Shown: positions 4,948 through 32,796 of the stretch, piece after piece
How the letters are laid out: each line of letters begins with the position of its first letter
Numbering within the stretch: the first letter of the stretch is position 1
NCBI GenBank assembly: GCA_019748395.1
Contig: JAIEPM010000631.1
Coordinates: 1-36,992 of the forward strand
Direction: 5' to 3'
Length of the DNA stretch: 36,992 bases
DNA from: Candidatus Obscuribacterales bacterium
Lineage (GTDB): Bacteria > Cyanobacteriota > Vampirovibrionia > Obscuribacterales > Obscuribacteraceae
Position numbers and translations under genes: made by a program
Notes under the pieces: generated by a model
What the model was told of the DNA's origin: nothing
Database searches by the model: none
The model's input: only the letters and a program-made list of their open reading frames with translations

Positions 4948-5718
4948 TTAATTGAAAGTAAGTATTTGTTGATTGTTCGGACCGCTGATATAGGGCGCAT
5001 TTGATCTCAAGGGATCTGGTGATGCATTAACACCTGCCCAGAGGCACTTTTCGGCGTTAGGTTGATTTCCGACGACATCGTTGTTGTTTTGAGTTCCACC
5101 CAGGTTTTGAACTCCGCCAAAATCGGTCTGGAATCCGTATGCAGGCAGCATCACAACCTGTGTTGCATCAGTAACAGCCGGGTTCGAGCTTGAAGGGTCT
5201 ATAAGTTTGAAACCAAGTCTGATGAATGCCGGAGGTGCTTCGGATGCGTCTGTTGAAACACCGGTTGCTTTGAGCTCGACGATTTTTGGCAGCACACCGG
5301 CAAGGTCGTATGGCAGTGGAACATTTGTGGCTGTAATTTCAACCTTAGTCAGATCTGCATCTGCAGATTTTATTTCAACCTCGATGTCCGCGCTCGACGG
5401 TATGCCCATGGCAGTCGCAAAAGCTTTTGCTGTCGTTGCTGCCAGAGCTGCAGTTTTTTCGGCTTTTGTGCCGCTTGTTTGAAATTTCGGTCTTTTGGCT
5501 CCCAGGAAATAATTTTGACCGTTTACGCGTTTTGCAACTTCTTCTGCAACCGTTTGAAGTTTCTGGCTGTATTCGACATAAGCGTAAGAGTTGACGCCGA
5601 GTACTGTAATCAGCACAAAGACAATTGTGAAGGTCAGCATGCCTGCGGCTGTTCCGGCAAGAGTTAGACCGGCTTTAGAGCGTTGACGACTGTTTCTTTT
5701 TTTAGACTTGCTTTGCAT
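4948..5718 (-). CDS. TadE-like secreted/pseudopilin-type protein, paralog A
   Basis: A 256-residue protein with a basic N-terminus (KSKKRNSRQRSKAG), one membrane helix at about residues 20-42, and then a long extracytoplasmic region. Its closest match in style is the TadE/TadG group of minor pilins, which have one N-terminal helix and a secreted body. The last 90 or so residues (from GFKLIDPSSSNPAVTDATQ to the end) are almost identical to those of the neighbouring paralog, while the middle differs. Met at 5718 is preferred over the outer ATG at 5760. It has GGAGAG upstream, its N-terminus matches the paralog, and a TATTAT box at 5775-5780 would leave the outer start almost no leader. Function unknown; an assembled surface structure is a guess. 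Confidence 0.72.
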   Translation of the reverse strand: MQSKSKKRNSRQRSKAGLTLAGTAAGMLTFTIVFVLITVLGVNSYAYVEYSQKLQTVAEEVAKRVNGQNYFLGAKRPKFQTSGTKAEKTAALAATTAKAFATAMGIPSSADIEVEIKSADADLTKVEITATNVPLPYDLAGVLPKIVELKATGVSTDASEAPPAFIRLGFKLIDPSSSNPAVTDATQVVMLPAYGFQTDFGGVQNLGGTQNNNDVVGNQPNAEKCLWAGVNASPDPLRSNAPYISGPNNQQILTFN

Positions 5719-5763
5719 ATTCTTCTCTCCAGCTTGCCTGTCGCTCAGGCACTGTGCCATTTC

Positions 5764-5814
5764 CCACTGGACTAATAATAGGAGCTCAACGTTAGTTAGC
5801 TGTGAAAGTCAAAA
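5764..5814 (-). promoter_or_regulatory. conserved upstream block of TadE-like gene A
   Basis: On the coding strand this holds GACTTTCACA, then CTAACGTT, then CTCCTATTAT, at the same spacing as in the block before the paralog at 6697-6748. TATTAT (5775-5780) resembles a -10 box, but no good -35 hexamer sits 16-18 bases before it. The shared words may therefore be activator sites. Confidence 0.45.
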
Positions 5815-5836
5815 TCCGGATTTGCGTTCCGGATTT
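5812..5836 (-). terminator. hairpin between the two TadE-like genes
   Basis: AAATCCGGA and TCCGGATTT form a perfect 9-bp stem around a 7-base loop, just past the stop codon of paralog B (5848). On the minus strand only TTTT and then GACTTTC follow, so termination may be weak. The right arm runs straight into the conserved upstream block of paralog A. Confidence 0.5.
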
Positions 5837-5847
5837 CGCTTGCAAGC

Positions 5848-6627
5848 TTAGTTAAAGCTGAGTATTTGTTGCTTGTCCGGACCTGAGATATAAGGCGCGT
5901 TTGAGCGAAGCTGGCCGTTGACGCCGGCCCAGAGACACTGAGCTGCATCAGGCTGATTGCCGACAACATCATTGTTGTTCTGTGTTCCGCCCAGGTTTTG
6001 AACTCCTCCGAAGTCGGTTTGGAAGCCGTAAGCCGGCAAAATAACAACCTGAGTAGCATCGGTCACGGCCGGGTTTGATGTGGAGGGATCGATGAGCTTG
6101 AAGCCCATTCTGATGAATCCGGGCGGTGCGTCAACCTGCTCTGAGGCAATACCTGTTGCCGAAACGCTCAAGAATTGAGGGAAAAGCTTGCTGAATTGAA
6201 AAGGCAGTGGAATTTCAGCCATTGAAACTGTAACCGGTGTAAAAGCAACGCCTTCAACTGATTCGTCCGGTGCATCGGGGAAAGTCACAATCGGTGTCAC
6301 CGGCAATCCATAGATTTCGCCCAGCTTTTTGGCATATTCATTGGCTTTCTCTTTCTGTGATTCAAGCCCTTTGCCGCTGCGCTGAAACTGCGGTCTTAAA
6401 GCGCCCAGCCAGTAGGTGCGATTGCTGACCTGTCTGGCAACGGCATTTGCAATTACCTGGATTTTGGAGCCGTAGACCATATAGCTAAAAGTGTTGACTG
6501 CAAAAGCTGCCAGCGCAACAAAGAAAATGCTGACCACAAGCATGGCGGCGGCTGATTCCACAAGAGCCTGACCTTTAGTGTTGCGGTTGAGCTTGTTGAC
6601 TTTGCGAAGTTTAGCTTGATTCTTCAT
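5848..6627 (-). CDS. TadE-like secreted/pseudopilin-type protein, paralog B
   Basis: A 259-residue paralog of the gene downstream. After a basic start (KNQAKLRKVNKLNRNTKG) comes GQALVESAAAMLVV, which is the typical opening of a TadE-like helix (Gly, then Glu, then a hydrophobic run to about residue 45). An extracytoplasmic region follows. The C-terminal 90 residues are near-identical in protein to paralog A (YGFQTDFGGVQNLGGTQN and neighbours), while the DNA differs at many third positions. The duplication is thus old and the C-terminus is under strong selection. I start at Met 6627, which has AGGCAGGG just upstream and fits the paralog. The ORF is open back to an ATG at 6693, which would sit almost on the predicted transcription start. 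Confidence 0.72.
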   Translation of the reverse strand: MKNQAKLRKVNKLNRNTKGQALVESAAAMLVVSIFFVALAAFAVNTFSYMVYGSKIQVIANAVARQVSNRTYWLGALRPQFQRSGKGLESQKEKANEYAKKLGEIYGLPVTPIVTFPDAPDESVEGVAFTPVTVSMAEIPLPFQFSKLFPQFLSVSATGIASEQVDAPPGFIRMGFKLIDPSTSNPAVTDATQVVILPAYGFQTDFGGVQNLGGTQNNNDVVGNQPDAAQCLWAGVNGQLRSNAPYISGPDKQQILSFN

Positions 6628-6696
6628 TTTCCCTGCCTCAGCATCGGTCAGGACATGCTGCCCGCCATGTCTTGCTTCGATGCGCGAATTCATTAC

Positions 6697-19584: not shown

Positions 19585-21324
19585 TTATTTAACTCCGAGC
19601 GAGTCGTCTTTCGATTGTTGGACTCGTGGTGCTCTGGCGTGATCGTCTATCCAGGTCGTGAGTGTGTCGAGCAACATCGGCGAAGGTACGAACGTCTCAA
19701 AAATGAGATGCTCCGCCGTGCCGATGATGAATAAGTTTTTGTCTGCGCTCTGGACTGCGTCGAAGAGCGCCACTGTTCCCTCTGGTTTGACTAGCCTGTC
19801 CTTCAAGCCTTGAATTACAAAAACTGGAAGAGTTTTGATTTTTTCGCATTCACCCTTTGTGCTTCTCATGAAAACTGCAAATTTGATCAGCTCTTTTGGC
19901 GACATGTCCATTTTTGCTTTTGCATCAGATTTCCATTTTTCAGCAAGGGCCTCATTCTTCGTGGCCTGAGCTGTGACCATGTCGCCTACTCGGAATGGTC
20001 TGTTTTTTCCACCCCCCAGCAGATGCGCTGCCACTGAGAGTCCCATGCGCTTGCCCTGAAAACGCTCGGCCGAAGGTACGGATGAAATGACTCCGGCCAG
20101 GCTGTCTTCATAGAGGGCTGCACCCCTTAATGCGATGGCACCACCCATGGATTCACCGAGCAGGAAAACTGGAAGATTGTGCTCTCGTTGTTTTATGAGA
20201 TTAACCATGGAGCCGATATCTTTGAGTGTTTCACTGAAATGGAGGTCCTCTTGTCCTTGTGTGGTTAACCAGGAACCGAAACCTCTTACATCTAATGCGT
20301 AGACGCTGTAGCCGCGTTTCTGCATTTCATGACCGAAGTTGTCGAAAGAACGATTTTCAAGACCGAGACCGTGGATGCAGAGTATTGCCGCTTTCGGATT
20401 TGGAACTTTGGAGGGCCAGTTGATTAACGGCATGGTGCGCATTTTAAATTCACTAACCAGCCAGAGATATTCTGCCGGTGATTCCGGATTGAATTGAGCG
20501 ATGTAGTTTTTTTCGAAATCCTGCTTCAGGGCCTCCCATTCGCCCAATCTGTCTTCTGCATCCATTTGTGCGCGCAAGCTGAGGAGCTGGTCGATAAGTG
20601 TTAGGAATTGTCCGGAGAGTGCTTTTCGCTCAGCCTCTTTTGCTGGTCCCTGGCTGCGCAATATACTCATTAGTTGGATGCGAGCCCAAAACAAATCGGC
20701 AATGTCTGAAATTTGATTTGACTTGGCTCTTTCACTTGTGAGAGCCACTAGCTTCTTTGCTAGAACTTCGGCTTCATCATATTTTTTTTGGAAGACATTA
20801 GTGCCTGTAAGCGACTCTAGTAATGAAACTCGCAAAATGTGATTGGGCGGAAGGAAGTTTGCCATTTGGAGCGAAGCATTGTAGTACTTGCTTGCCATAG
20901 CTGCATTTCTTTCGCCCCAGTAGCAGTCGGCCAGGCGCTTGTAAATTAGCGCTTGCTGCATTTGCGATCCTTTAGCTTCCGGTGAATTTAATACGAATTC
21001 CAATTGTTTGATAGCCGGACCGTAGTCTTCTTCCATGCGTTCGATTGCGGCAAGAAGGTAAGAAAGCTTCACTCTTTGCGCTTCCTTTTTCTCGCTTTTG
21101 AGCGCATCTTCGACCAGCTTTTGCGCTTCTGCATGTTTGCCGTCCATCTGCAATACATAGGCTTTTGACTGTACGTCATCAAAAGCATCGGCGTTCGCGC
21201 TTGTTTCAGCGGCAATTGTGTCCTTCGTATTTGTAGCAAACAAAGTGATCGAGCTGCTGATCAGCAGAACTGCAAGTGCGCGGCAAAAGTGAGCTTCCAG
21301 TTTCGTTTTTGCAGTCATTGACAT
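19585..21324 (-). CDS. secreted TPR plus alpha/beta-hydrolase fusion (lipase/lysophospholipase-like)
   Basis: A 579-residue protein. A signal peptide covers about residues 1-40 (hydrophobic core LAVLLISSSITLF). TPR-like helix pairs follow at about 45-270 (AYVLQMDGKHAEAQKLVEDAL, QMQQALIYKRLADCYW). The C-terminal alpha/beta-hydrolase (about 300-570) is of the serine aminopeptidase S33/monoacylglycerol lipase type. It has the oxyanion segment CIHGLGLENRSFDNFG, nucleophile Ser392 in GESMGGAIAL, the acid in VIQGLKDRLV and His in GTAEHLIFE. Ester or lipid hydrolysis at the cell envelope is likely; the substrate is unknown. It is divergent from a second, simpler hydrolase of the same type at 21601. 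The two share DVRGFG/DMRGFG and the other motifs and are probably paralogs. Confidence 0.88.
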   Translation of the reverse strand: MSMTAKTKLEAHFCRALAVLLISSSITLFATNTKDTIAAETSANADAFDDVQSKAYVLQMDGKHAEAQKLVEDALKSEKKEAQRVKLSYLLAAIERMEEDYGPAIKQLEFVLNSPEAKGSQMQQALIYKRLADCYWGERNAAMASKYYNASLQMANFLPPNHILRVSLLESLTGTNVFQKKYDEAEVLAKKLVALTSERAKSNQISDIADLFWARIQLMSILRSQGPAKEAERKALSGQFLTLIDQLLSLRAQMDAEDRLGEWEALKQDFEKNYIAQFNPESPAEYLWLVSEFKMRTMPLINWPSKVPNPKAAILCIHGLGLENRSFDNFGHEMQKRGYSVYALDVRGFGSWLTTQGQEDLHFSETLKDIGSMVNLIKQREHNLPVFLLGESMGGAIALRGAALYEDSLAGVISSVPSAERFQGKRMGLSVAAHLLGGGKNRPFRVGDMVTAQATKNEALAEKWKSDAKAKMDMSPKELIKFAVFMRSTKGECEKIKTLPVFVIQGLKDRLVKPEGTVALFDAVQSADKNLFIIGTAEHLIFETFVPSPMLLDTLTTWIDDHARAPRVQQSKDDSLGVK

Positions 21325-21600
21325 ATCCTTTCGATATTGCAGTTTGGGCGATGCTTGGGCAGCAGGTCACGCACCATTGTTTCCGAGAAAAGTATTTGCT
21401 GCCATAGCTTTTTGATAAGAATTCAATGTCAAGCTTTCACTTCAGAGCGGCACAATCTTGAGTTAATTCATCTTCTGAATTAACAGCTTGGCTAGGTTTA
21501 AGCCATTTGCTTTCGAGTTAGAAGCATCGACATGATATTCTTTGGGCTCGTAAATTCGATTTGAAGCCGCAGAGGCTCTGCATACAACGGTGGTCAAGAG
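21325..21600. promoter_or_regulatory. divergent intergenic region between two hydrolase genes
   Basis: This 276-base gap must hold both promoters. I see no hairpin terminator, repeat or convincing -35/-10 pair. The plus-strand gene has only a weak ribosome site (GGTGG). Confidence 0.35.
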
Positions 21601-22677
21601 ATGTTTGGACGACTTACAAAATTCTCAATTTCGGCTTTAGCCGCGCTTTCAATTACAAGCCCGGCTCTGGCTCTGGAAAGCACGATGCCGCCGCAGTATA
21701 TTGAGCAGATCAAGCCTGAAATTGCAGCTCAATACAAATACAGTGAAGACGGTGAATTCAGTCTGGCCGGCGGCCTACCAACTTATCAGTGGATGCCTGC
21801 CGACGGGAACATGAAAGCCGTAATTGTCGGAATTCATGGGCTGACTTTGCATGGTCGCCGTTATCGTGTTCTGGCCCGCACTATGGCCGTCAGTGGCGCC
21901 GGTTTCGTTTCGGTGGATATGCGCGGATTTGGTCGCTGCAAATTTCAAGACGATGGCAGCTTGAAACCCAAAGGCGAGCGGACCGAAGTTAATCACGAAC
22001 TTAGCTACGCCGATATTCTTAAAACAGTGCAGTCCGTGAGAGCTAAATATCCCGGCGTTCCATTGATAGTAATGGGTGAAAGCCTGGGCTGTACTTTTTG
22101 CATGCGTCTTGCAGGTGAGCACCCTGAACTGGTAGATGGAGTTATTCTTTCGGCTCCGGCGGTGCGTGTAAATCCGAAAATGTATGCCAGCCCCAGCGAC
22201 ATCAAAGCTGGAGTAAAGGCCATCGTATCGCCCAGTCATCAGGTAAATCTGCACAACTTTTTTATGGAGCTTGTGTCATCGAGACCTGAAGTCTGCAATG
22301 AAATGATTGATGATCCTTTTATCGTCAAGTCGCTTTCTCTAAAAGATTTGCTTTCAACAGATATATTCGTGGACAAAACCGTGAGCTGGAGTCGCAACAC
22401 GAGCGACCACCTGCCGCTTCTTGTTATTCAGGGCAGCAATGACAAATGCGTCGTTCCGAAACATCTGACCGATCTGATGATGAACATGAAGTCCGATGAT
22501 ATGCGTATTGCCTGGAAAGGCAGCTATGGGCATTTGCAACTGGAAACGGTTTTTATGCGAGCTCCGGTTATCGACAGCATCGGCATGTGGCTGAATGACC
22601 ACAATGCTACATACAGAGCTCATTTGAAGCAGCTGGAGCAAAATATTGCTGACCTTGGCGGTTCTGTAATTCGTTAA
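21601..22677 (+). CDS. secreted alpha/beta hydrolase (lysophospholipase-like)
   Basis: A 358-residue protein with a signal peptide (about residues 1-24, cleavage probably after SPALA). The hydrolase domain carries IHGLTLHGRRY (oxyanion hole), VSVDMRGFGRC, nucleophile Ser161 in MGESLGCTFC, acid Asp281 in VIQGSNDKC and His311 in GSYGHLQLE. This is a complete triad of the monoacylglycerol lipase/S33 type. Its closest relative in view is the C-terminal half of the divergently transcribed gene at 19585, which has an added TPR region. The substrate cannot be read from sequence. Confidence 0.88.
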   Translation: MFGRLTKFSISALAALSITSPALALESTMPPQYIEQIKPEIAAQYKYSEDGEFSLAGGLPTYQWMPADGNMKAVIVGIHGLTLHGRRYRVLARTMAVSGAGFVSVDMRGFGRCKFQDDGSLKPKGERTEVNHELSYADILKTVQSVRAKYPGVPLIVMGESLGCTFCMRLAGEHPELVDGVILSAPAVRVNPKMYASPSDIKAGVKAIVSPSHQVNLHNFFMELVSSRPEVCNEMIDDPFIVKSLSLKDLLSTDIFVDKTVSWSRNTSDHLPLLVIQGSNDKCVVPKHLTDLMMNMKSDDMRIAWKGSYGHLQLETVFMRAPVIDSIGMWLNDHNATYRAHLKQLEQNIADLGGSVIR

Positions 22678-23754: not shown

Positions 23755-23841
23755 GCTATCGTTCTTAATCACCGGGAAGCAAGAACTTGGGCTTAATTTG
23801 CGCGGCTTCGGCCTGAGGTGCTAGTCTGATAGGAGTTTCAA

Positions 23842-26547
23842 TTGCAATGGAAGCAGTTTCAGATGTCGGAAAGTCGATTCTCCAAATTCGAGGTTGAAGG
23901 TCCCTCCAAATTCGAAGTCTTAATGGTGTTCTTAGGCATTTTGGGTCCGATGGCCTGTCTTGTGATCGAGAGTTACTTGCACTTCTGTGCGCTCATCTAT
24001 TTCAATCCCATTCCTACGCCTTTCTTTAGCTTTCTGGTGGCTCTCGTTCCTCTTTCCAATATTTTCTCGCTCTCTGTTTATAAAAAGGGTTCACTTGCGG
24101 TACTTCGATATGCAAGTATTTTAAACGGCTTTGCTGTTTGTGTTTCGCTCCTTTATGCAATCGCCTTTTTGCCTTTAGCGCCCCTTGGCCTGGCTTTTAT
24201 AGTTGCTATGGGTATTGGCTTGCTGGTGTTTGCGCCGTTTTTTTCATTCTGCGTCATGCTCAAAATGCGCCGGAAAATTACCGCGCGAATGAAAGAATTT
24301 GGAGCCACTGCATTACCGCTGGATATTTGCGCCTCAATTCTTCTTTTACTTTGCGGAGCCCTTGGATTTTCGGAGGGACTGACCAGAGCTTGTAACGAGC
24401 AGATCTACAGAAATCCTGCAAATGCAGCGAAAGATCTACTCCTGCTGAGAGCCTTCGGCAATACGAACAGCATGCTGCGAGCTTGCTATGGTCTTGATGA
24501 GCGTCGCAACTTCTTAAATATTGGTTCTTATGCAGTATCTCTTTTCGGCGGTATCGAACCACGCCTTTATGACTACTACTACTATAATTCCGACCCCAGG
24601 CGCAGCAACTTTAAGCGAGAGTTGTTCTACCGGGCTACCGGAAGATCCTTCAATTCATTTCCCCGTCCACAGGGGAACTTCGCAGAGATTTTTCCATTCA
24701 GCGACGATGATTATTACTGGTATCAAGGCAATGACCAGGATTTCGCCGGAGAAATTGTCGGTGGTGTGGTAAAAGGGCTGAAGCTCGTTCAGTCGAATAT
24801 CGGCGGTCAGGTTGATCCCGATGCGGCAGTCGAGCATCTGGTTTGGACAATGAAATTCAGCAAGGAGGCTTATGGCAGCCGCGAGTTAAGAACTGAACTT
24901 CAGCTGCCGCCCGGAGCCGTCATCTCCGATTGCTGGTTGATTGTTGACGGTAAGAGGCTTGATGCAAGCTTTCAAGCCCGCAGCCAGGCTCGCACGCAAT
25001 ATGTAAAACAGGCAAACAATCAGCAAACCGGTTTACTCGTTGCGACTGCAGGCCCGGGGCGCGTACTTATACAGGCGCCTGCAATAAACGGGAGTCTTGA
25101 TCTCTGTGTGCAAATCGATGCGCCCATGGAAATAGAATCAGAGAACAAAGCTCTCTGCACGCTGCCGTCGCTGATTGAGCGCAACTTTGAACTTGCCTGC
25201 CAAACTGAAGTGAAGCTCGTTCAACTCGCCAAAACATCAAGCGATGTTTCTCTTTTGCAGGTAAAGTCGGCTAGATCTGCAAGAAAATTCAGCAACGCGC
25301 AGTTATTTATGGGACCGGATTATGTACTTGATGGTTTTGACGCCCCGCCCTTTTCCGAGTATAGCCGTGACAAGAATAAGCAAGCTTTTCTTTCTGAGAA
25401 TCCATACAACGCATCGACTCGCGGGGCTCAGATAATTCGCAAAAGTCGACTGAAAGAGAAGCCTCTTGTAGTTGTGCTTGACGGCTCGGCGAGTATGGAA
25501 AAATCTATAAAAGAACTCTTAGATGGCTTATCTCAGATAGTGTTTTCCGATGCGACTTTGGTTTGGGCCTCCGATGAGCCGATTCTTGTTGCGGAGCATG
25601 TTCGCACAGATAGCTCAGTCTGGAAAAATGCTCTTGCGCGTATTGCGGACTCCGCCTGTGTGGGAGGTCAGGATAATGCTGCGGCCTTAGCTCTTGCTTT
25701 CAACTCCGTGGATTTAAAGCAAGGTTCAAACATTGTCTGGTTGCATGGACCGCAAGCGGTGGAAATCGGCAAATTGAAAATGGACGAGCTATGGCGTCCA
25801 CTTTCGGCAAAATCGACGCTATATGAGTATCAGGCCGCCATGGGTCCTAACAAGCTGATTAAGAGTCTGGACAAGAGCCCATCGGTAAAATCGATTTCCC
25901 ATGTTTACGGCTTGAGGTCGGACCTGGAATCGGTATTTTTACAACTGGCCGGACGCAAGGATGTTTTTGAAATTGAGCGTAAGTTTATCGCGGCAAAAAC
26001 TGCAGAGCAGATTAACGCGCCCACTTTCTTAAGCCAGCTTTGTGCCAATGACTGGATACTCCAGAGACTTGGTGATGAGAGGGAAAATGCATTAAACGGC
26101 AAAATTGCTCAAGGCTATCATATTGTCACTCCTCTTACTTCTGCAATCGTTGTCTTGCCGACTGACTGGACTGTGCAAACTGAATCGACTTCAGAAAGAG
26201 ATGAAAGTGTTTCCTTAGATTCTACTGCCGCTCATGATAAATTGAAGGCAAGCTCGGCTGGGGAAGCTGCCCCTACTGCCACAGCAGCGATCTCCGGAGC
26301 TAAAGCTGAGCTTAATTCAGCTACTGCAAATAAGTCTTCCGCCGGCAGCTCGAAAGAACAGAGCGCTCAGGTCTTAACTGATGCCCCCAGTGTTGCTCCC
26401 ATTCCAATCGATACTAATTCGAACAACATTATGGATATTGCCACCAAGCCTGAGCCGCCTTTGAATATGTTGATCTTGATTTCAATGTTTGTTGCAGCAT
26501 TGATAGCCTGGAAACAAAGAGTGCTGAAATCAAAGTGCGCACGCTGA
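23842..26547 (+). CDS. VIT plus VWA-like multi-pass protein with C-terminal PEP-type sorting signal
   Basis: A 901-residue protein. The N-terminus has about five membrane helices (residues about 27-47, 57-77, 90-110, 112-135, 159-177). A VIT-like domain follows (about 310-450, with ELRTELQLPPGAVISDCWL and YVKQANNQQTGLL). A VWA-like domain has the metal-site motif DGSAS at 547-551. After a low-complexity Ser/Ala region (about 785-860), the C-terminus reads Lys-Pro-Glu-Pro-Pro at 869-873, then one helix (about 874-892) and a basic tail. This is the layout of PEP-CTERM-type exosortase substrates. VIT proteins with N-terminal helices paired with exosortases are known in Bacteroidetes (the MSEP-CTERM and XrtN systems). 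The TTG start has AGGAG six bases upstream. It overlaps the exosortase gene by 13 bases. Confidence 0.85.
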   Translation: MQWKQFQMSESRFSKFEVEGPSKFEVLMVFLGILGPMACLVIESYLHFCALIYFNPIPTPFFSFLVALVPLSNIFSLSVYKKGSLAVLRYASILNGFAVCVSLLYAIAFLPLAPLGLAFIVAMGIGLLVFAPFFSFCVMLKMRRKITARMKEFGATALPLDICASILLLLCGALGFSEGLTRACNEQIYRNPANAAKDLLLLRAFGNTNSMLRACYGLDERRNFLNIGSYAVSLFGGIEPRLYDYYYYNSDPRRSNFKRELFYRATGRSFNSFPRPQGNFAEIFPFSDDDYYWYQGNDQDFAGEIVGGVVKGLKLVQSNIGGQVDPDAAVEHLVWTMKFSKEAYGSRELRTELQLPPGAVISDCWLIVDGKRLDASFQARSQARTQYVKQANNQQTGLLVATAGPGRVLIQAPAINGSLDLCVQIDAPMEIESENKALCTLPSLIERNFELACQTEVKLVQLAKTSSDVSLLQVKSARSARKFSNAQLFMGPDYVLDGFDAPPFSEYSRDKNKQAFLSENPYNASTRGAQIIRKSRLKEKPLVVVLDGSASMEKSIKELLDGLSQIVFSDATLVWASDEPILVAEHVRTDSSVWKNALARIADSACVGGQDNAAALALAFNSVDLKQGSNIVWLHGPQAVEIGKLKMDELWRPLSAKSTLYEYQAAMGPNKLIKSLDKSPSVKSISHVYGLRSDLESVFLQLAGRKDVFEIERKFIAAKTAEQINAPTFLSQLCANDWILQRLGDERENALNGKIAQGYHIVTPLTSAIVVLPTDWTVQTESTSERDESVSLDSTAAHDKLKASSAGEAAPTATAAISGAKAELNSATANKSSAGSSKEQSAQVLTDAPSVAPIPIDTNSNNIMDIATKPEPPLNMLILISMFVAALIAWKQRVLKSKCAR

Positions 26548-27929
26548 AGGTTTTTGCCATTGTTCTTATTTCTTGCGGCTTCTGGCCTGTATGGCGATGG
26601 TATATTTCCAGAACTTTCGATGCTAGTGACGAGCCGTGGGGACTGCTTTCGATTGCAGCAATAATATTTTTGTATTTTCTAGAATCGAAAGAAGCTTCTT
26701 CGACGCAATCAGTGCGGGCTTACAGGTTCTATTCTGCGGCTTTAATTCTTTCGCTCTTATTCTACATAGTATCTTTGATATATCTGCCGCATTTGATTCA
26801 GGCTTTGCTGATGGTTTTGAGCCTTTTCTTTTTACTTTCTATGAGTTTTCGAATGCCCTCTAAATTGGGAGTTTTAGGGTTGTTTTTACTGGCATTACCA
26901 GTGCTGCCTTCTTTGAATTTTTTCGTAAGTTATCCGCTGAGAATGTTTATAACCGCCGCGTCGAGACAGTTGCTCAATTTAGCATCGATTCCGGTTGTGC
27001 AGGACGGAACGATGCTGATGCTCGGAGCTAAGCTGGTTTCGGTCGACGCGCCTTGTAGCGGAGTTAACATGCTCTGGTCATCGGCTTTTCTGGCTTGCTT
27101 ATGCATGTGTTTGAGACGTTTGAATTTGATAAGCTCGACAATGCTGTCGTTTGCAGCTCTGATTTTGATATTGTTCGCCAATGTATTGAGAGTCTCGGCG
27201 TTGACAATCTTCAGTTTTCAGTCAGCCGTTATGCCGGAGTCTATTGTGAAAGAGGAGCCAATCATTCACCTTCTGACCGGGCTAAGTGTTTTTGTTCTGG
27301 TTGCTCTGGGTATTGCCTTTCTTTCCGGCTATTTGCAAAACTTAGAGAAGAAAAGCGCGCCGAAGCTGAAAGATCCGGATAATGTAATTCCAAGAATCAT
27401 GGCGAAAAGCAATGCCGGTTCAAATAAGGTGCTTCTCTTGAGCATGCTTCTTTCTGCGCTGGCTGCAATCGTACCTCTCTGTTTGAAGGAGCCTGCCGGA
27501 ACAGCGCTGGAAGCTGAACCTCGCTGGCCGCTGAAAATCAATGGCGCTGAAGTCAGAGTCCTGGAAAGCAACGAAACACGCGATAAATTTGCTGAATCTT
27601 TTCCGGGGAAGATTAAAGTGTTTAGCGATGGCAGCCGCAAATATATTATGAGATGGATTCATACCGAAAGTCGGCAACTGCATCCAAGCAGCGATTGTTA
27701 TAAGGGGATGGGTTTCAGCATAGAGCACGGACCACTTGTTTCAATACTCGGAAATCGCTATAGCTCGTTCATAGCAGTAAAAAACGGCAGGAAATATAGA
27801 ATTCTTGAACGGATATATGATGAGCATGGCTCTTCTTGGACTGAGCCCTCCGAGTGGTATTGGGCTGCAACTCTGGATAAGACAAGCGGTCCATGGTGGG
27901 ATCTGGTTGTCATTGAGAACCTGAAGTGA
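26535..27929 (+). CDS. exosortase fused to EpsI-like C-terminal domain
   Basis: A 464-residue integral membrane transpeptidase-like enzyme. About eight hydrophobic helices fill residues 5-270. The exosortase catalytic residues are all present: Cys174 in VDAPCSGVNMLWS, Arg219 in FANVLRVSAL and His245 in PIIHLLTGLSVF. After a further helix (about 298-316), a soluble domain (about 330-464) includes WPLKINGAEVRVLE and LHPSSDCYKGMGFSI. That resembles the EpsI/DUF3485 domain found next to or fused with exosortases. The predicted task is to cut and transfer proteins at a Pro-Glu-Pro-type C-terminal signal. Its GTG start lies inside the end of the VIT/VWA gene, so translation is probably coupled, and that gene product carries such a signal. 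Confidence 0.88.
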   Translation: MRTLKVFAIVLISCGFWPVWRWYISRTFDASDEPWGLLSIAAIIFLYFLESKEASSTQSVRAYRFYSAALILSLLFYIVSLIYLPHLIQALLMVLSLFFLLSMSFRMPSKLGVLGLFLLALPVLPSLNFFVSYPLRMFITAASRQLLNLASIPVVQDGTMLMLGAKLVSVDAPCSGVNMLWSSAFLACLCMCLRRLNLISSTMLSFAALILILFANVLRVSALTIFSFQSAVMPESIVKEEPIIHLLTGLSVFVLVALGIAFLSGYLQNLEKKSAPKLKDPDNVIPRIMAKSNAGSNKVLLLSMLLSALAAIVPLCLKEPAGTALEAEPRWPLKINGAEVRVLESNETRDKFAESFPGKIKVFSDGSRKYIMRWIHTESRQLHPSSDCYKGMGFSIEHGPLVSILGNRYSSFIAVKNGRKYRILERIYDEHGSSWTEPSEWYWAATLDKTSGPWWDLVVIENLK

Positions 27930-28013: not shown

Positions 28014-29951
28014 ATGAGTCAAAATCAGAAATCTGAGCAGCATCAAGCAGACCGGCTCGCTGCTATCCCGGGGATTCCAGCCAGATTTGAAGTGCATGAA
28101 ATTATTTCGAAGGGCAGCTCCGGTTTCTTGTATCGGGCTCACGATTCTTTGCTGTCCCGTAATGTTGCCATAAAAGTATTGAATCTGGACAGTTTGAGCG
28201 ATTTTTACAAAGAGCGCTTCCTGCTCGAGGCAAAGGCGCTGGCTCAGTTGAAGCATCCAAACATCGTGCAGATATTGAGCTTTGGAATTACAGAGCAAGG
28301 AAGTCCATATTATGTGATGGAACTTTTGTCGGGCGAGACACTGGCTCAGGAGTTGGAGCGCTTTGGTCGCCTGGAATCAAAACGATTCTATGAATTGAGT
28401 TCTCAGCTATGTCAGGCGCTGGCAGAGATTCATAAGCAGGATGTCGTGCACAGAGATCTCAAACCCGGCAATATAATTCAAACGCTTGACCAGGACGGAA
28501 AGCAGCTTGCAAAAATAATTGATTTCGGCGTAGCGCTTTTAGACTCTTCCGTTCATTCAGGAGACACCATGACACTGCCGAAAAATTATGTCGGTACCGT
28601 GCGTTATATGAGCCCCGAGCAATGCCGTGGTGAGCGTGGTGACAAACTTTCAGATATATTTTCTCTAGGCTGCATCATGTATGAATGTATCAGCGGTGAG
28701 GCTCCTCTTTCGGCTGATGCTCCGGCAGCAACAATTTACAGGCATCTAAATGAGGACGCCGCTGCACTCAAATTTCGAACTGATTCGGAGGAGCTGGGAA
28801 GGCTCAGCTATCTAATTGCTCGCTGTCTTGAACGCGATAAAAACAAGCGAATTGCTGAGGCTTTAGAGATCAAAAAGGAACTGGATGAAATTTTCGCCTC
28901 TGGTTCGCTTGAGTTGAGTTTAGTTACTGAAGCGTCCAAGGCAGACGCCTCAAAGAATCTGAAAAATATGATTTTGGGTTGTCTGCTTGTTTTGTTGCTA
29001 ATCGGCATCGGCATTTATTATCGAAAGAGTGGAGATAGACAGAGTGATTTGAATAGCGGAAGGAAGCCTGTATCGACAGCCATTGCAAAACCAGTCAGAG
29101 TCAGATTGAGCATTTTGTTCGGTGACTGGCGGCAAATACGGGAATCGACAGACGAAAAAGCAATGGAAGGACGCCGGGAAATTTTGCGAAAGACCAAAGA
29201 ACTCTTGCCCGAGCTCATAAACAAAAGCAATTTGCGTTTTGCTGCATATGAATTCATTGCAGTGCTTCAACGTGAACTAAAGCGACCAATTTCCGAACAG
29301 CTTGCCTCTGAGGAGTCTGCTCTAAACTGTTGTGAATATGCAGCAGGAGATTATGTTACTAACGCGGCCAGACCGTTATGTATTCTGTCTGAGATCTATC
29401 TTGATCTTGGCAAAAAAGCTGAAGCTGAGCGCTACGCGCAGCGGTGCCTGAGTTTGGTGGATAACTCATTGCTTGCAAAACGGGAAGGCAAAGAAATAAG
29501 ATCTTTTCAGAATATCGATGATTTTGACAGCTTTGCAGGAAAGGAAAAGTCGAGAGCTAATCTGGTTCTAGGGGTTATTTATTTGGAGCGAGGTGACTTT
29601 GCTAAGGGTGAGGCCTATTTTAATGAAGCCCAAAGTTTCCAGCATGGAAGCAAGAGCTCAAAAGCCGAGTCCTTGCAGGTTCAGAGAAAGGCTGAGATTT
29701 ATATAGCTCTGGATAAGCCTGTTCTGGCAGAGCGAGCGGTCCGGAACTATTTAGAACAGCTCTTGGATCCTGAATACAATCAGTGGGGCATTGATAATAC
29801 GTTTTATGAGTTGTTGCGATTTGCAAAATGGTCGTCAGAGAAGCATTTTCCAGAACTCAGTCGAGAGATTTACAAGATGACCGATGAACTTGCAAAAACC
29901 GATTCACGTTATCCGGCGCTACTCGATGATTTAAAAGCGCGCAGTAATTGA
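28014..29951 (+). CDS. membrane Ser/Thr protein kinase with TPR C-terminal region
   Basis: A 645-residue Hanks-type kinase. The kinase domain (about 25-290) has the Gly-rich loop ISKGSSGF, catalytic Lys54 in VAIKVLNLD, Asp148 in VVHRDLKPGN, DFG at 170-172 and MSPEQCRGE in the activation segment. One membrane helix (about 319-337) follows. The last 300 residues form helical repeats of TPR type (AGDYVTNAARPLCILSEIYLDLG, LVLGVIYLERGDFAKGEAYFNEA), which should lie outside the membrane. This is a typical receptor-kinase layout with an external TPR region. The gene follows the exosortase gene by 84 bases. Its 3' end overlaps the convergent kinase gene by 43 bases. Confidence 0.92.
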   Translation: MSQNQKSEQHQADRLAAIPGIPARFEVHEIISKGSSGFLYRAHDSLLSRNVAIKVLNLDSLSDFYKERFLLEAKALAQLKHPNIVQILSFGITEQGSPYYVMELLSGETLAQELERFGRLESKRFYELSSQLCQALAEIHKQDVVHRDLKPGNIIQTLDQDGKQLAKIIDFGVALLDSSVHSGDTMTLPKNYVGTVRYMSPEQCRGERGDKLSDIFSLGCIMYECISGEAPLSADAPAATIYRHLNEDAAALKFRTDSEELGRLSYLIARCLERDKNKRIAEALEIKKELDEIFASGSLELSLVTEASKADASKNLKNMILGCLLVLLLIGIGIYYRKSGDRQSDLNSGRKPVSTAIAKPVRVRLSILFGDWRQIRESTDEKAMEGRREILRKTKELLPELINKSNLRFAAYEFIAVLQRELKRPISEQLASEESALNCCEYAAGDYVTNAARPLCILSEIYLDLGKKAEAERYAQRCLSLVDNSLLAKREGKEIRSFQNIDDFDSFAGKEKSRANLVLGVIYLERGDFAKGEAYFNEAQSFQHGSKSSKAESLQVQRKAEIYIALDKPVLAERAVRNYLEQLLDPEYNQWGIDNTFYELLRFAKWSSEKHFPELSREIYKMTDELAKTDSRYPALLDDLKARSN

Positions 29952-31372
29952 TCCTTCAATTTTGAAACTGAAGTGAATCTATCTTTGTAATCCTGAGCGC
30001 TTGCCTGCGCGATAAGGTCATTTAATTCCTGAGAGATATCGCTATTGATTGAAGAGGGATTGCTGGCTTTAAGTGCAATTGGATCTTCTGCCGTGAGTAC
30101 GTAATGAATAGTGCCGGCCAGCGAATATAGATCTGTTAGTTCGTTGGTACTACCATTGAATTGCTCGGGTGCCATGTATGCCAACTTACCTGCTGATTCG
30201 CCGTTTTCTTCGTCAGAGTTGATTGCAACGGCGAAATCTATAAGCACAAGTTTGCCGCTTGAATTTACCATCAAGTTATCCGGAGTGAAGTCGCGGTGGA
30301 TCAAGGGCGGTTCAAGACCGTGCAATGTTTCAAGAAGCTCGCACATTTGCAAGGCCATTTGAATAGCCTCCCGTTCCGGAACAGGTCCTTGTTCTTTAAT
30401 TAATTTGCGCAGTGTTTTGCCTTCAATAAATTCCAGTACTAAATAAGCGCGGTGGTCTTCGACAAATGAATCAATATACTTAACTATTTGAGGGTGTTTG
30501 ACCGATTCAAGAGCGAGCGCTTCTGCATGGAAAGCTTCGAGAGCTTGTTTTCTTGCGTGCAAGTCGGCGTAGACCGGCAAAATTGTTTCTTTCAAAACTA
30601 AAAGCTCTGATTTTTCGCAATCAAAGGCCAGATAGGCTGTAGCTTGTCCGCCTCCGCCCAGTCGCTTCTTGATTTCGAATCTGTTTTTGAGTTTGCTGTT
30701 TTCAAGCAATGGTGTCAGGCGCTCGCGGCCGGGAGGGGCAGAAAGTGCATCCAGCCATATATCGGTAAAGCTGAGATTCCTTGATGGTTTAATTGCATCA
30801 AGAGCACCGGGTTCAATGGCAGTGAGCTTGCAGTGAGTTTTTATGAGTGTGGAAAGTTCCTCTCTGGTTTCATCTGATTCCAGATTAGCCAGCGGAATTT
30901 TGATGCTAGCTTTGCTGTTTTGTTTTGATTGAAGACATAGAAGCGACGTGCGTGAGTCTGCGCTTGCTTTTGGGCGTTCGATGCCGACTGTTTCAATCTC
31001 ATCCCATCCAAGAGTGGGGCCTTCTAAAGGAAAAAACAGGCTCTGCCAGACCATTCTGATGCCACGACTGTTCGCTATAATTCTGTAGGGACATGGTCTA
31101 AAAGCAAGGTAGCCGATTAGTGCGGCAAGCAGTGCTGCCGTGCCCTGCAGAACGTGATGCGCGAAGACGGAAGCTCCTGAGCTTCCCAGCTGTGACACGG
31201 GTAGAAATTCTACAAGCCATAAGACCGGCAGGGGTCCGTAAACAAAAAAGAAAATTGCGATTGCTAGAAGGAGCATGCGAGCTGCTATCGAGTGTCTTTC
31301 AAAAAGGAAGTCTTCAATCCAGCGTCTGGCAAAGCTTGGTTTATGGATGTTTAGTACTTGTACTTCGCTCAT
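29909..31372 (-). CDS. membrane Ser/Thr protein kinase, DFG changed to DFA
   Basis: A 487-residue protein. Two membrane helices lie near the N-terminus (about 33-57 and 67-90), followed by a PH-like or unknown region to about 215. The kinase domain (about 232-480) has KRLGGGGQATAYLA, Lys261 in LVLKETILP, Asp361 in IHRDFTPDN and MAPEQF in the activation segment. The metal-binding motif reads Asp379-Phe380-Ala381 rather than DFG. Because Lys, both Asp residues and APE remain, it may still be active. It is the second gene of a tandem kinase pair: its ATG overlaps the stop of the gene upstream (ATGA, 31369-31372). At its own end it overlaps the convergent kinase gene. Confidence 0.9.
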   Translation of the reverse strand: MSEVQVLNIHKPSFARRWIEDFLFERHSIAARMLLLAIAIFFFVYGPLPVLWLVEFLPVSQLGSSGASVFAHHVLQGTAALLAALIGYLAFRPCPYRIIANSRGIRMVWQSLFFPLEGPTLGWDEIETVGIERPKASADSRTSLLCLQSKQNSKASIKIPLANLESDETREELSTLIKTHCKLTAIEPGALDAIKPSRNLSFTDIWLDALSAPPGRERLTPLLENSKLKNRFEIKKRLGGGGQATAYLAFDCEKSELLVLKETILPVYADLHARKQALEAFHAEALALESVKHPQIVKYIDSFVEDHRAYLVLEFIEGKTLRKLIKEQGPVPEREAIQMALQMCELLETLHGLEPPLIHRDFTPDNLMVNSSGKLVLIDFAVAINSDEENGESAGKLAYMAPEQFNGSTNELTDLYSLAGTIHYVLTAEDPIALKASNPSSINSDISQELNDLIAQASAQDYKDRFTSVSKLKDQLLRAFKSSSSAG

Positions 31373-32796
31373 GCTTCGCTTACCGCCGGAGCTCGTGATT
31401 TTTTCAAAGTTTCGATTTCTAAAAGCAATTCTCGACTATTCGGCCTTTTATCTTCCTCTTCATGAGTGCAACGCCTGATTAACTCATCAAATTCCTCTGA
31501 AATGGAAACTCCCAGAGATCGCGGTGAAGACACTGAAAGTGCCTCAGGCAGCTTTGCCGTCAACAAATAATGCAAGCTTTTACCCAGAGAGTAAATGTCG
31601 CTCTTGGGGCTGGGTTTGGCGCGAAACTGTTCTGGTGCTATGTATGCTTGTTTGCCGATGATTGTTCCGGTGAAAGTACCGGCTATTTCTTTTGCTGCTC
31701 CGAAATCTATTAATGCGATGCTTTCGTTTGACCGGAGCAAAATATTCTCAGGGCTCAGATCCCGATGAACTATCGGCGAAGCCTGACCATGCAAATAGGC
31801 AAGTGTTTCAGCTAAGTCACTTGCCCATTGCAGCACCATTTCCTCGCTTTGCCGACCATCTCTTAAGATGACCCGGCCAAGGTCTACTCCTTCCAGATAT
31901 TCCAGACTCATGTAATGGCGACCATTTTCAATGAAATAGTCGTAGACCCTGGCCAGATTCTTATGGTTCAGCTTGCTCAGTAAGCTTGCTTCTCGGCGAA
32001 AGAGCTCTTCTGCTTTGCTTGTGACTTCTTCGTTATCAGGAAAAACCGATTCTTTCAGAACTATATTCCGGCCGTCATGACTGCGCGCCAGGTAAACAGC
32101 GGCAAAACCGCCAAAGCCCAGTTGTCTGAGAATATGGTAGCGTCCTTCCTGAATTTTGCTTCCCGGCTCAAGGGGAGCAAAGGTTGCTCCGGAGAATTTG
32201 TTTGCTAAAGATTTCTCCCATATCTGTGTATAGCTGGCCAGTTCGCCGCGATTGCCGGACTGCAAGGCGTATTCAAAGTCGTCAAGCTCGGCGTCTCTGA
32301 CGCAATTGCTCGCGCATGATTCAAATGCAATCAAAAACTGTTCCAGTTCATCTTTCTCGAAGCGCTTTAACTGCAACACGGCGTTGCCGCCGCTTTTGAA
32401 AAAGAGCGTAAGATGCTCGTCGTTTTGAAACGTTTCGCCGCGCTTCCAGTTAAGCTTGATTCGAGCAAGATCGTCCCAGCTTCTCTGCAAGCGGAAATTC
32501 ATGCTGCTCAGGTAAGCCAGAGGGAAGCAGAGTCCTTGTTTGCTTATTCTGATCAGCTTGTCTTCAAATAAAAATGCAAGCAGTCCGGAGCCCATAGTAA
32601 TCAAGCTGAGGCAGGCAAGAAATCCAAGAGCGGCTGCAATGTTCACATTTGCCGGGAGTTTGAGCAAAAGGACTATGTACAAAACGACAATGCCCGGTAT
32701 GGCCAGCCCCCAGACGGGAAAGAGAAGCATCATGATTGCCAGACCCGCCTTATGCTCAGGTCGCTTTTCAATCATGCGTAGGTCGAATTCGGCCAA
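31369..32796 (-). CDS. membrane Ser/Thr protein kinase
   Basis: A 475-residue paralog of the next gene. Two N-terminal membrane helices (about 18-42 and 50-75) are followed by a region of about 130 residues. The kinase domain (about 215-470) has LRQLGFGGFAAVYLA, Lys in NIVLKESVFP, Asp346 in IVHRDLSPEN, DFG at 364-366 and YIAPEQFRAKP. All residues needed for activity are present. The ATGA overlap with the downstream kinase indicates coupled translation, so the two membrane kinases are probably made together. The upstream gap of 280 bases is shared with the divergent secreted-protein gene at 33077. Confidence 0.92.
   Translation of the reverse strand: MAEFDLRMIEKRPEHKAGLAIMMLLFPVWGLAIPGIVVLYIVLLLKLPANVNIAAALGFLACLSLITMGSGLLAFLFEDKLIRISKQGLCFPLAYLSSMNFRLQRSWDDLARIKLNWKRGETFQNDEHLTLFFKSGGNAVLQLKRFEKDELEQFLIAFESCASNCVRDAELDDFEYALQSGNRGELASYTQIWEKSLANKFSGATFAPLEPGSKIQEGRYHILRQLGFGGFAAVYLARSHDGRNIVLKESVFPDNEEVTSKAEELFRREASLLSKLNHKNLARVYDYFIENGRHYMSLEYLEGVDLGRVILRDGRQSEEMVLQWASDLAETLAYLHGQASPIVHRDLSPENILLRSNESIALIDFGAAKEIAGTFTGTIIGKQAYIAPEQFRAKPSPKSDIYSLGKSLHYLLTAKLPEALSVSSPRSLGVSISEEFDELIRRCTHEEEDKRPNSRELLLEIETLKKSRAPAVSEA

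Follow-up and report, generated by a model that had tools for sequence, protein, structure and literature searches.

Exosortase systems with a single substrate include the XrtK and XrtN pairs. XrtK (TIGR04287) is a dedicated exosortase with a VIT substrate, MSEP-CTERM (TIGR04286), and the XrtN system (TIGR04476/TIGR04477) is composed of a multi-pass VIT substrate adjoining its dedicated exosortase. PEP-CTERM and EpsH were defined by Haft and colleagues, who also drew attention to fusions with EpsI and to a single PEP-CTERM family of integral membrane proteins (PMC1569441). Most described exosortases serve multiple substrates, with a median of eight PEP-CTERM proteins per genome (PMC1569441). 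In 2011, Haft and colleagues defined a dedicated system by the pairing of one enzyme with one target only, and presented VIT/VWA proteins whose tails are of the GlyGly, LPXTG or PEP type (PMC3237569). A 2025 study links cyanoexosortase B to motility and biofilm (PMC12188702). Nothing relevant on XrtK, XrtN, XrtO, XrtQ or on exosortases together with VIT proteins was found in the open-access library searched. Here we analyze a 36,992-nucleotide stretch (the window; contig JAIEPM010000631.1, C671 in our numbering) of a 6.47-Mb metagenome-assembled genome (MAG) from a Candidatus Obscuribacterales bacterium, presumably a non-photosynthetic relative of cyanobacteria. The window contains a two-gene pair of about 4 kb, with a VIT/VWA gene upstream and an exosortase gene downstream on the same strand (Table 1). 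The first encodes a surface-type membrane protein, and the second a membrane enzyme that very probably cleaves this protein's tail or attaches it anew. The two proteins very probably constitute a dedicated sorting pair that is conserved as a unit, and by sequence the pair is a variant, so far missing from the catalogues, of a type of dedicated sorting system that is already known.

The upstream protein ends in ...ATKPEPPLNMLILISMFVAALIAWKQRVLKSKCAR, directly before the stop codon, and displays the PEP-CTERM architecture of PEP, helix and basic tail at its extreme C terminus. The final helix spans residues 874-900 in the AlphaFold2 model. P870 and E871 are invariant in all 22 aligned exosortase-linked VIT proteins; the Pro-Glu motif is thus not a chance occurrence. 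The downstream protein exceeds the cut-offs of two superfamily models, Pfam Exosortase_EpsH (85.2 bits; cut-off 25.7) and NCBIfam exo_archaeo (TIGR04178; 36.7 bits; cut-off 23), and keeps the Cys, Arg and His residues, which places it in the exosortase/archaeosortase superfamily. It does not reach the general exosortase model TIGR02602 (66.2 bits; cut-off 105.55). C174, R219 and H245 are invariant in 28 of 28 aligned exosortase homologs. The initial annotation had described a self-contained pair of one enzyme and one substrate, with a 13-base gene overlap, an exosortase with these three residues intact, and a multi-pass substrate whose C terminus consists of Pro-Glu-Pro, a single helix and a basic tail. 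All of these points are borne out, the multi-pass region in the sense of five predicted N-terminal helices.

The window genome encodes a single exosortase and, as far as can be seen, a single signal. A 36-residue tail profile matches the window tail at E = 1.6e-10 and recovers no second match in this genome among the matches listed, down to about E = 1.1. The PEP-CTERM model TIGR02595 remains below its cut-off on the window tail itself and has no match above cut-off anywhere in the genome. The initial annotation had called for a scan for other such C termini and had taken many other PEP-CTERM proteins as the mark of a general enzyme; the scan finds one signal among the matches listed, and the reading of one enzyme for one substrate holds up in this as in the other tests made. 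One enzyme, one substrate and adjacent genes, the features of a dedicated system, are therefore present in the window genome, within the bounds of an incomplete MAG (678 contigs, 90% complete, 4% contaminated).

The pairing extends across the order. Among 53 Obscuribacterales genomes, 27 contain the exosortase, at 30 loci. A VIT homolog lies directly upstream at all 29 loci with readable upstream DNA, the gene ends usually overlapping or abutting; the 30th locus (G019) begins at a contig end. All upstream VIT tails contain Pro-Glu and a helix, and nearly all contain basic residues. Two of the VIT genes (L039 and L057) are split into two frames and retain the tail. The tail profile, run against the 53 genomes, recovers only VIT-family tails at E ≤ 1e-4, and the next match has an E-value of 0.017. 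The co-occurrence test proposed in the initial annotation gives agreement between signal and exosortase in 51 of the 53 genomes (26 with both, 25 with neither), and in the two discordant ones, G009 and G019, genes are cut by contig ends. A Fisher test yields p of about 7e-13, which is not a true probability because the genomes are related. Three genomes (G008, G030 and G047) possess two pairs and two signals each, with tails that differ within the genome. A general exosortase with many PEP-CTERM substrates, the VIT protein being one of several, would resemble most described enzymes (PMC1569441), but the lack of TIGR02595 matches above cut-off, the lack of other tail-profile matches among those listed down to about E = 1.1 and the one-to-one correspondence of signals and exosortases in the two-pair genomes render it extremely improbable. 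With one exosortase and one signal in the window genome, it is rejected.

Signal subtype follows enzyme clade. The tails fall into PEPP, PESD, PEAD, PEP+D/E and PEP+H/R subtypes, classes that were drawn after the tails had been seen. Mapped on the exosortase tree, these subtypes require 6 changes, compared with a mean of 15.8 and a minimum of 12 in 500 shuffles. The window enzyme clusters with those of L032, L033 and L060 (branch value 98, starred), which are precisely the PEPP-tail set. The two pairs of G047 carry PEPP and PEADT tails.

A VIT family member is present in 46 of the 53 genomes, and some members are devoid of the signal. Seventeen long VIT paralogs with a complete C terminus were inspected, including one in the window genome itself (contig C654, L120). 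The C-terminal helix is kept in all 17, a Pro-Glu signal is found at the helix in none, and none adjoins an exosortase. In L176, the start of the open reading frame (ORF) was called too far upstream, and an exosortase is present. The initial annotation had counted VIT homologs without the signal against a dedicated pair. Such homologs do exist, yet because they never adjoin an exosortase, they strengthen the link between signal and enzyme. The VIT tree contains 6 switches between signal-bearing and signal-free states, at least 3 of them on starred branches. The paralogs also bear on the idea that Pro-Glu and helix form an ordinary membrane anchor and that the exosortase acts on something else. 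Their helices without Pro-Glu indicate that a helix at this position is normal for the VIT family, as this idea supposes. However, every exosortase-linked member has Pro-Glu and the 17 unlinked ones lack it, the one exception being a chance PE located 12 residues before the helix in L134 and missing in its sister L136. An ordinary anchor is therefore highly improbable.

The VIT domain of the window protein is recognized by Pfam (28.4 bits; cut-off 26.5), and VWA_2 is matched below threshold (18.3 bits; cut-off 27). The AlphaFold2 model, with a mean predicted local distance difference test (pLDDT) score of 73, begins with five helices, continues through VIT and VWA regions and closes with a disordered stalk followed by a last helix. 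The N-terminal helices span residues 23-46, 60-82, 85-123, 126-152 and 158-190. Hydropathy agrees with the model in predicting five N-terminal helices and one C-terminal helix. In a fold search of the PDB, the top match is human inter-alpha-inhibitor heavy chain 1, a VIT and VWA protein (E = 1.1e-18). The VWA residues D547, S549 and D578 are invariant in 22 aligned VIT homologs. Basic clusters follow helices 2 and 4 and are also found at the C terminus. By the positive-inside rule, this arrangement suggests that the VIT and VWA domains are outside and that Pro-Glu is at the outer face.

The structure model of the exosortase is confident (pLDDT 87.8). A fold search with the model finds no solved relative (best E = 0.6), and a sequence search finds no solved structure resembling it, its two weak matches being unrelated membrane or designed proteins. 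The C-terminal domain contains a conserved motif, R380-Q-x-H383-P-x-x-x-C388, in which H383 and C388 are invariant across the 28 exosortases. The motif order H-P-x-x-x-C...WY...T resembles EpsI by eye. The EpsI-like fusion claimed in the initial annotation is plausible by this motif, but hidden Markov models do not support it. The 25 NCBIfam families listed for the 28 exosortases do not include TIGR02914 (EpsI), a Pfam scan of these enzymes yields no EpsI-type family, and hhalign of the domain against five EpsI sequences returns a probability of 0.5%.

Exosortase chemistry has been proposed to be sortase-like and to use Cys, Arg and His, with transient attachment to Cys followed by further processing (PMC1569441). 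The window exosortase very probably processes only the adjoining VIT/VWA protein. Following the EpsH/PEP-CTERM model, the five N-terminal helices of this protein would place the VIT domain, the VWA domain and the disordered stalk on the periplasmic side. The sixth, C-terminal helix would return to the cytosol and leave the basic tail inside, which would bring Pro-Glu to the outer surface of the inner membrane. In the published exosortase model, the Cys-Arg-His site is on this side too; it would attack at or near Pro-Glu, remove the terminal helix and form a thioester. Such tail cleavage is likely, by homology. Since the five N-terminal helices would still hold the substrate, cleavage would not release the protein. 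The freed stalk end may be passed to an envelope acceptor, either lipid or polysaccharide, and the VIT/VWA head would then be tethered at both ends. This transfer is speculative, and its chances are about even.

Alternatively, the C-terminal helix may simply be trimmed, leaving a free periplasmic stalk without transfer, as in a regulated-proteolysis switch. This alternative concerns the mechanism and not the pairing. It is consistent with the five helices that keep the substrate membrane-bound and with the lack of a conserved acceptor-making gene next to the pair. Against it stand the sortase-like published model, with its Cys attachment and further processing (PMC1569441), and the paralogs with an uncut helix, given which mere trimming would need a purpose of its own. 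Cleavage alone is a tentative explanation with an appreciable chance of being right. In human inter-alpha-inhibitor heavy chains, the C-terminal ends become covalently bound to polysaccharide. The VIT/VWA protein might be handled in a similar way, with its stalk end on an envelope glycan or lipid and its N terminus in the inner membrane forming a covalent tether. Lineages might toggle this tether by exchanging the Pro-Glu tail and exosortase for a plain helix anchor. We consider this extension improbable.

Several points weigh against a dedicated pair that cleaves and transfers its substrate. A second substrate could be missing from the window MAG, which is incomplete and fragmented. Across the 30 pair loci, the two genes have no further conserved neighbor. 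The transfer and acceptor steps are speculative. The VIT tree offers just 4 supported pairs for an independent-pairs test, of which 3 agree, none disagrees and 1 is unchanged, too few to reach significance.

The window exosortase falls below the cut-off of every Xrt and Crt subfamily model. The nearest curated model is XrtQ (NF012182; 136.5 bits; cut-off 270), and XrtN (52.8 bits; cut-off 200) ranks behind XrtQ, XrtT and XrtO for this enzyme. XrtQ is matched by all 28 relatives, with a best E-value of 4.7e-47, compared with 1e-108 to 1e-120 for true XrtQ; bit scores are listed for the first of the 28 members only, and for the others a position below the cut-off is deduced from their E-values. 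The window VIT protein scores 30.5 bits with the XrtN-target model TIGR04477 (cut-off 250), which is matched by all 22 VIT relatives. XrtK has no match to the window enzyme and is matched by only 3 of the 28 enzymes, whereas MSEP-CTERM matches the window VIT protein weakly and in its N-terminal part (28 bits; cut-off 150). XrtO gives 64.7 bits with the window enzyme (cut-off 250), and TIGR02921 (cut-off 200) has no match on the VIT protein. By these scores, the pair belongs to none of the XrtN, XrtK/MSEP-CTERM and XrtO systems. A known cyanoexosortase is also ruled out, with CrtB at 29.3 bits (cut-off 300), CrtC at 20.4 bits (cut-off 225) and CrtA not among the matches listed.

XrtQ of Pseudomonas and Variovorax is likewise part of a two-gene pair, with a VIT/VWA PEP-CTERM substrate upstream and a C-terminal extension on the enzyme. 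However, the tested XrtQ substrates are signal-peptide proteins near TIGR03788 and have no multi-pass N terminus. The XrtN system is similar in its substrate, as the TIGR04477 matches show, but both window proteins are far below the XrtN and TIGR04477 cut-offs. XrtK/MSEP-CTERM differs in its signal, which is MSEP and not PE. The XrtO/TIGR02921 (PEP_integral) pair, found in other families of the same class (L143, L144, L147, L148 and L149), also contains a multi-pass VIT protein, ending in VPEPE or VPEPQ, and an overlapping downstream exosortase. It differs in its separate enzyme clade (98, starred) and its own substrate family (293.6 and 433.9 bits with TIGR02921). VIT/VWA substrates with a swappable C-terminal signal are also shared by the Gram-negative dedicated sortase (marine VIT/VWA target TIGR03788), which is again encoded adjacently, and by GlyGly-CTERM proteins with rhombosortase (PMC3237569). 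The enzymes and motifs of these two systems are unrelated to the window pair.

A wider scan of 84,980 species genomes detected 346 relatives, and the best 80 were kept. In most of these 80, the gene directly upstream encodes a VIT protein that ends in a PEP-type tail. The substrates are of two types. The first is a signal-peptide VIT/VWA protein near TIGR03788, found with XrtQ in Pseudomonas and Variovorax and with XrtQ-like enzymes in Verrucomicrobiota. The second is a multi-pass, XrtN-target-like VIT protein, found with XrtQ-like enzymes in Obscuribacterales, Desulfomonile, Accumulibacter, Steroidobacter, Armatimonadota and Acidobacteriota. In Poribacteria (L168), the contig carries only the C terminus of the VIT protein. 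The Obscuribacterales enzymes form one clade in the exosortase tree (95, starred), inside a supported group with the others. No XrtN over cut-off is present in 94 genomes of the class of L217, a MAG labelled Pedobacter, so that XrtN enters the comparison through profile scores and not through the tree. The exosortase of the L217 pair groups with proteobacterial XrtQ, and the label of this MAG may be wrong.

The kind of system is already known, since VIT partners of a comparable sort accompany XrtN, XrtK, XrtO and XrtQ, and the likeness in logic to XrtK and XrtN drawn by the initial annotation holds. Its further suggestion of a separate, possibly undescribed variant is retained in part. The window enzyme, and by E-values its relatives, lie below all curated subfamily cut-offs. 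Separateness is not supported: pairs of the same type are also found outside Obscuribacterales, the tree groups the enzyme with XrtQ, and both dedicated systems and VIT/VWA sorting substrates were described in 2011 (PMC3237569). What appears to be new is the association of XrtQ-matching enzymes, apparently under every curated subfamily cut-off, with an XrtN-target-like substrate. The pair could also be regarded simply as XrtQ (or XrtN) with a known VIT partner, needing no separate name. The XrtQ matches of all members, the similar gene order in Pseudomonas and Variovorax and the TIGR04477 matches of the VIT partners agree with this view. The low XrtQ and TIGR04477 scores, E-values far weaker than those of true XrtQ, and XrtQ partners that resemble TIGR03788 argue against it, and we consider it unlikely, if not without substance.

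Two other exosortases were encountered. G039, which also has a dedicated pair, encodes a second, distant, XrtA-like enzyme of 309 residues (L150:5452-6381, minus strand). A 274-residue exosortase near XrtA and XrtW lies on a short contig of G097 (L146:3920-4744) without a VIT neighbor.

Table 1. Features of the VIT/VWA-exosortase locus (window positions)
Feature	Position	Strand	Evidence
Shine-Dalgarno-like AGGAG, 6 bases ahead of TTG start	23831..23835	+	sequence
Multi-pass VIT/VWA protein, 901 aa, TTG start, putative sole exosortase substrate	23842..26547	+	ORF, Pfam, alignment, AlphaFold2, fold search
Five predicted N-terminal transmembrane helices, residues 24-176	23911..24369	+	hydropathy, AlphaFold2
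VIT domain, fold residues 313-433, Pfam match 332-403	24778..25140	+	Pfam, AlphaFold2, fold search
VWA domain, residues 542-716	25465..25989	+	sub-threshold Pfam, alignment, AlphaFold2, fold search
Disordered Ser/Ala-rich stalk, residues 779-871, pLDDT about 30	26176..26454	+	AlphaFold2
Sorting signal: KPEPP, helix, basic tail KQRVLKSKCAR; PEP = residues 870-872	26446..26544	+	sequence, alignment, tail profile
Overlap of the two genes, exactly 13 bases	26535..26547	+	ORFs, sequence
Exosortase, 464 aa, GTG start, XrtQ-like	26535..27929	+	ORF, HMMs, alignment, tree, structure model
Cys174, putative nucleophile, invariant in 28 homologs	27054..27056	+	sequence, alignment
Arg219, invariant	27189..27191	+	alignment
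His245, invariant	27267..27269	+	alignment
C-terminal alpha/beta domain of exosortase, residues ~329-464, EpsI-like by motif only	27519..27926	+	alignment, structure model, motif comparison

Three Ser/Thr protein kinase-like ORFs lie directly 3' of the pair (28014-32796). A gene family that includes one window ORF recurs near 15 of the 30 pair loci at varying positions. Two divergent alpha/beta-hydrolase-like ORFs, one with a TPR-like N terminus, flank an intergenic region at 19585-22677. On the minus strand at 4948-6693, adjacent ORFs of 270 and 281 residues each have an N-terminal hydrophobic segment and share near-identical C-terminal halves (FIRxGFKLIDPS...GGTQNNNDVVGNQP), which reads as a tandem duplication or homogenized repeat.

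The chemistry and acceptor of exosortases are largely unproven, and an overlapping gene pair that holds a lone enzyme and its lone substrate within about 4 kb is near the smallest test case. The signal-free paralogs, one of them in the window genome, are natural negative controls, and the two-pair genomes with differing signals suit tests of specificity. The catalogue of dedicated systems gains a combination of XrtQ-like enzyme and XrtN-like substrate that occurs in Obscuribacterales and in several further groups of bacteria, and the pair merits its own family model.

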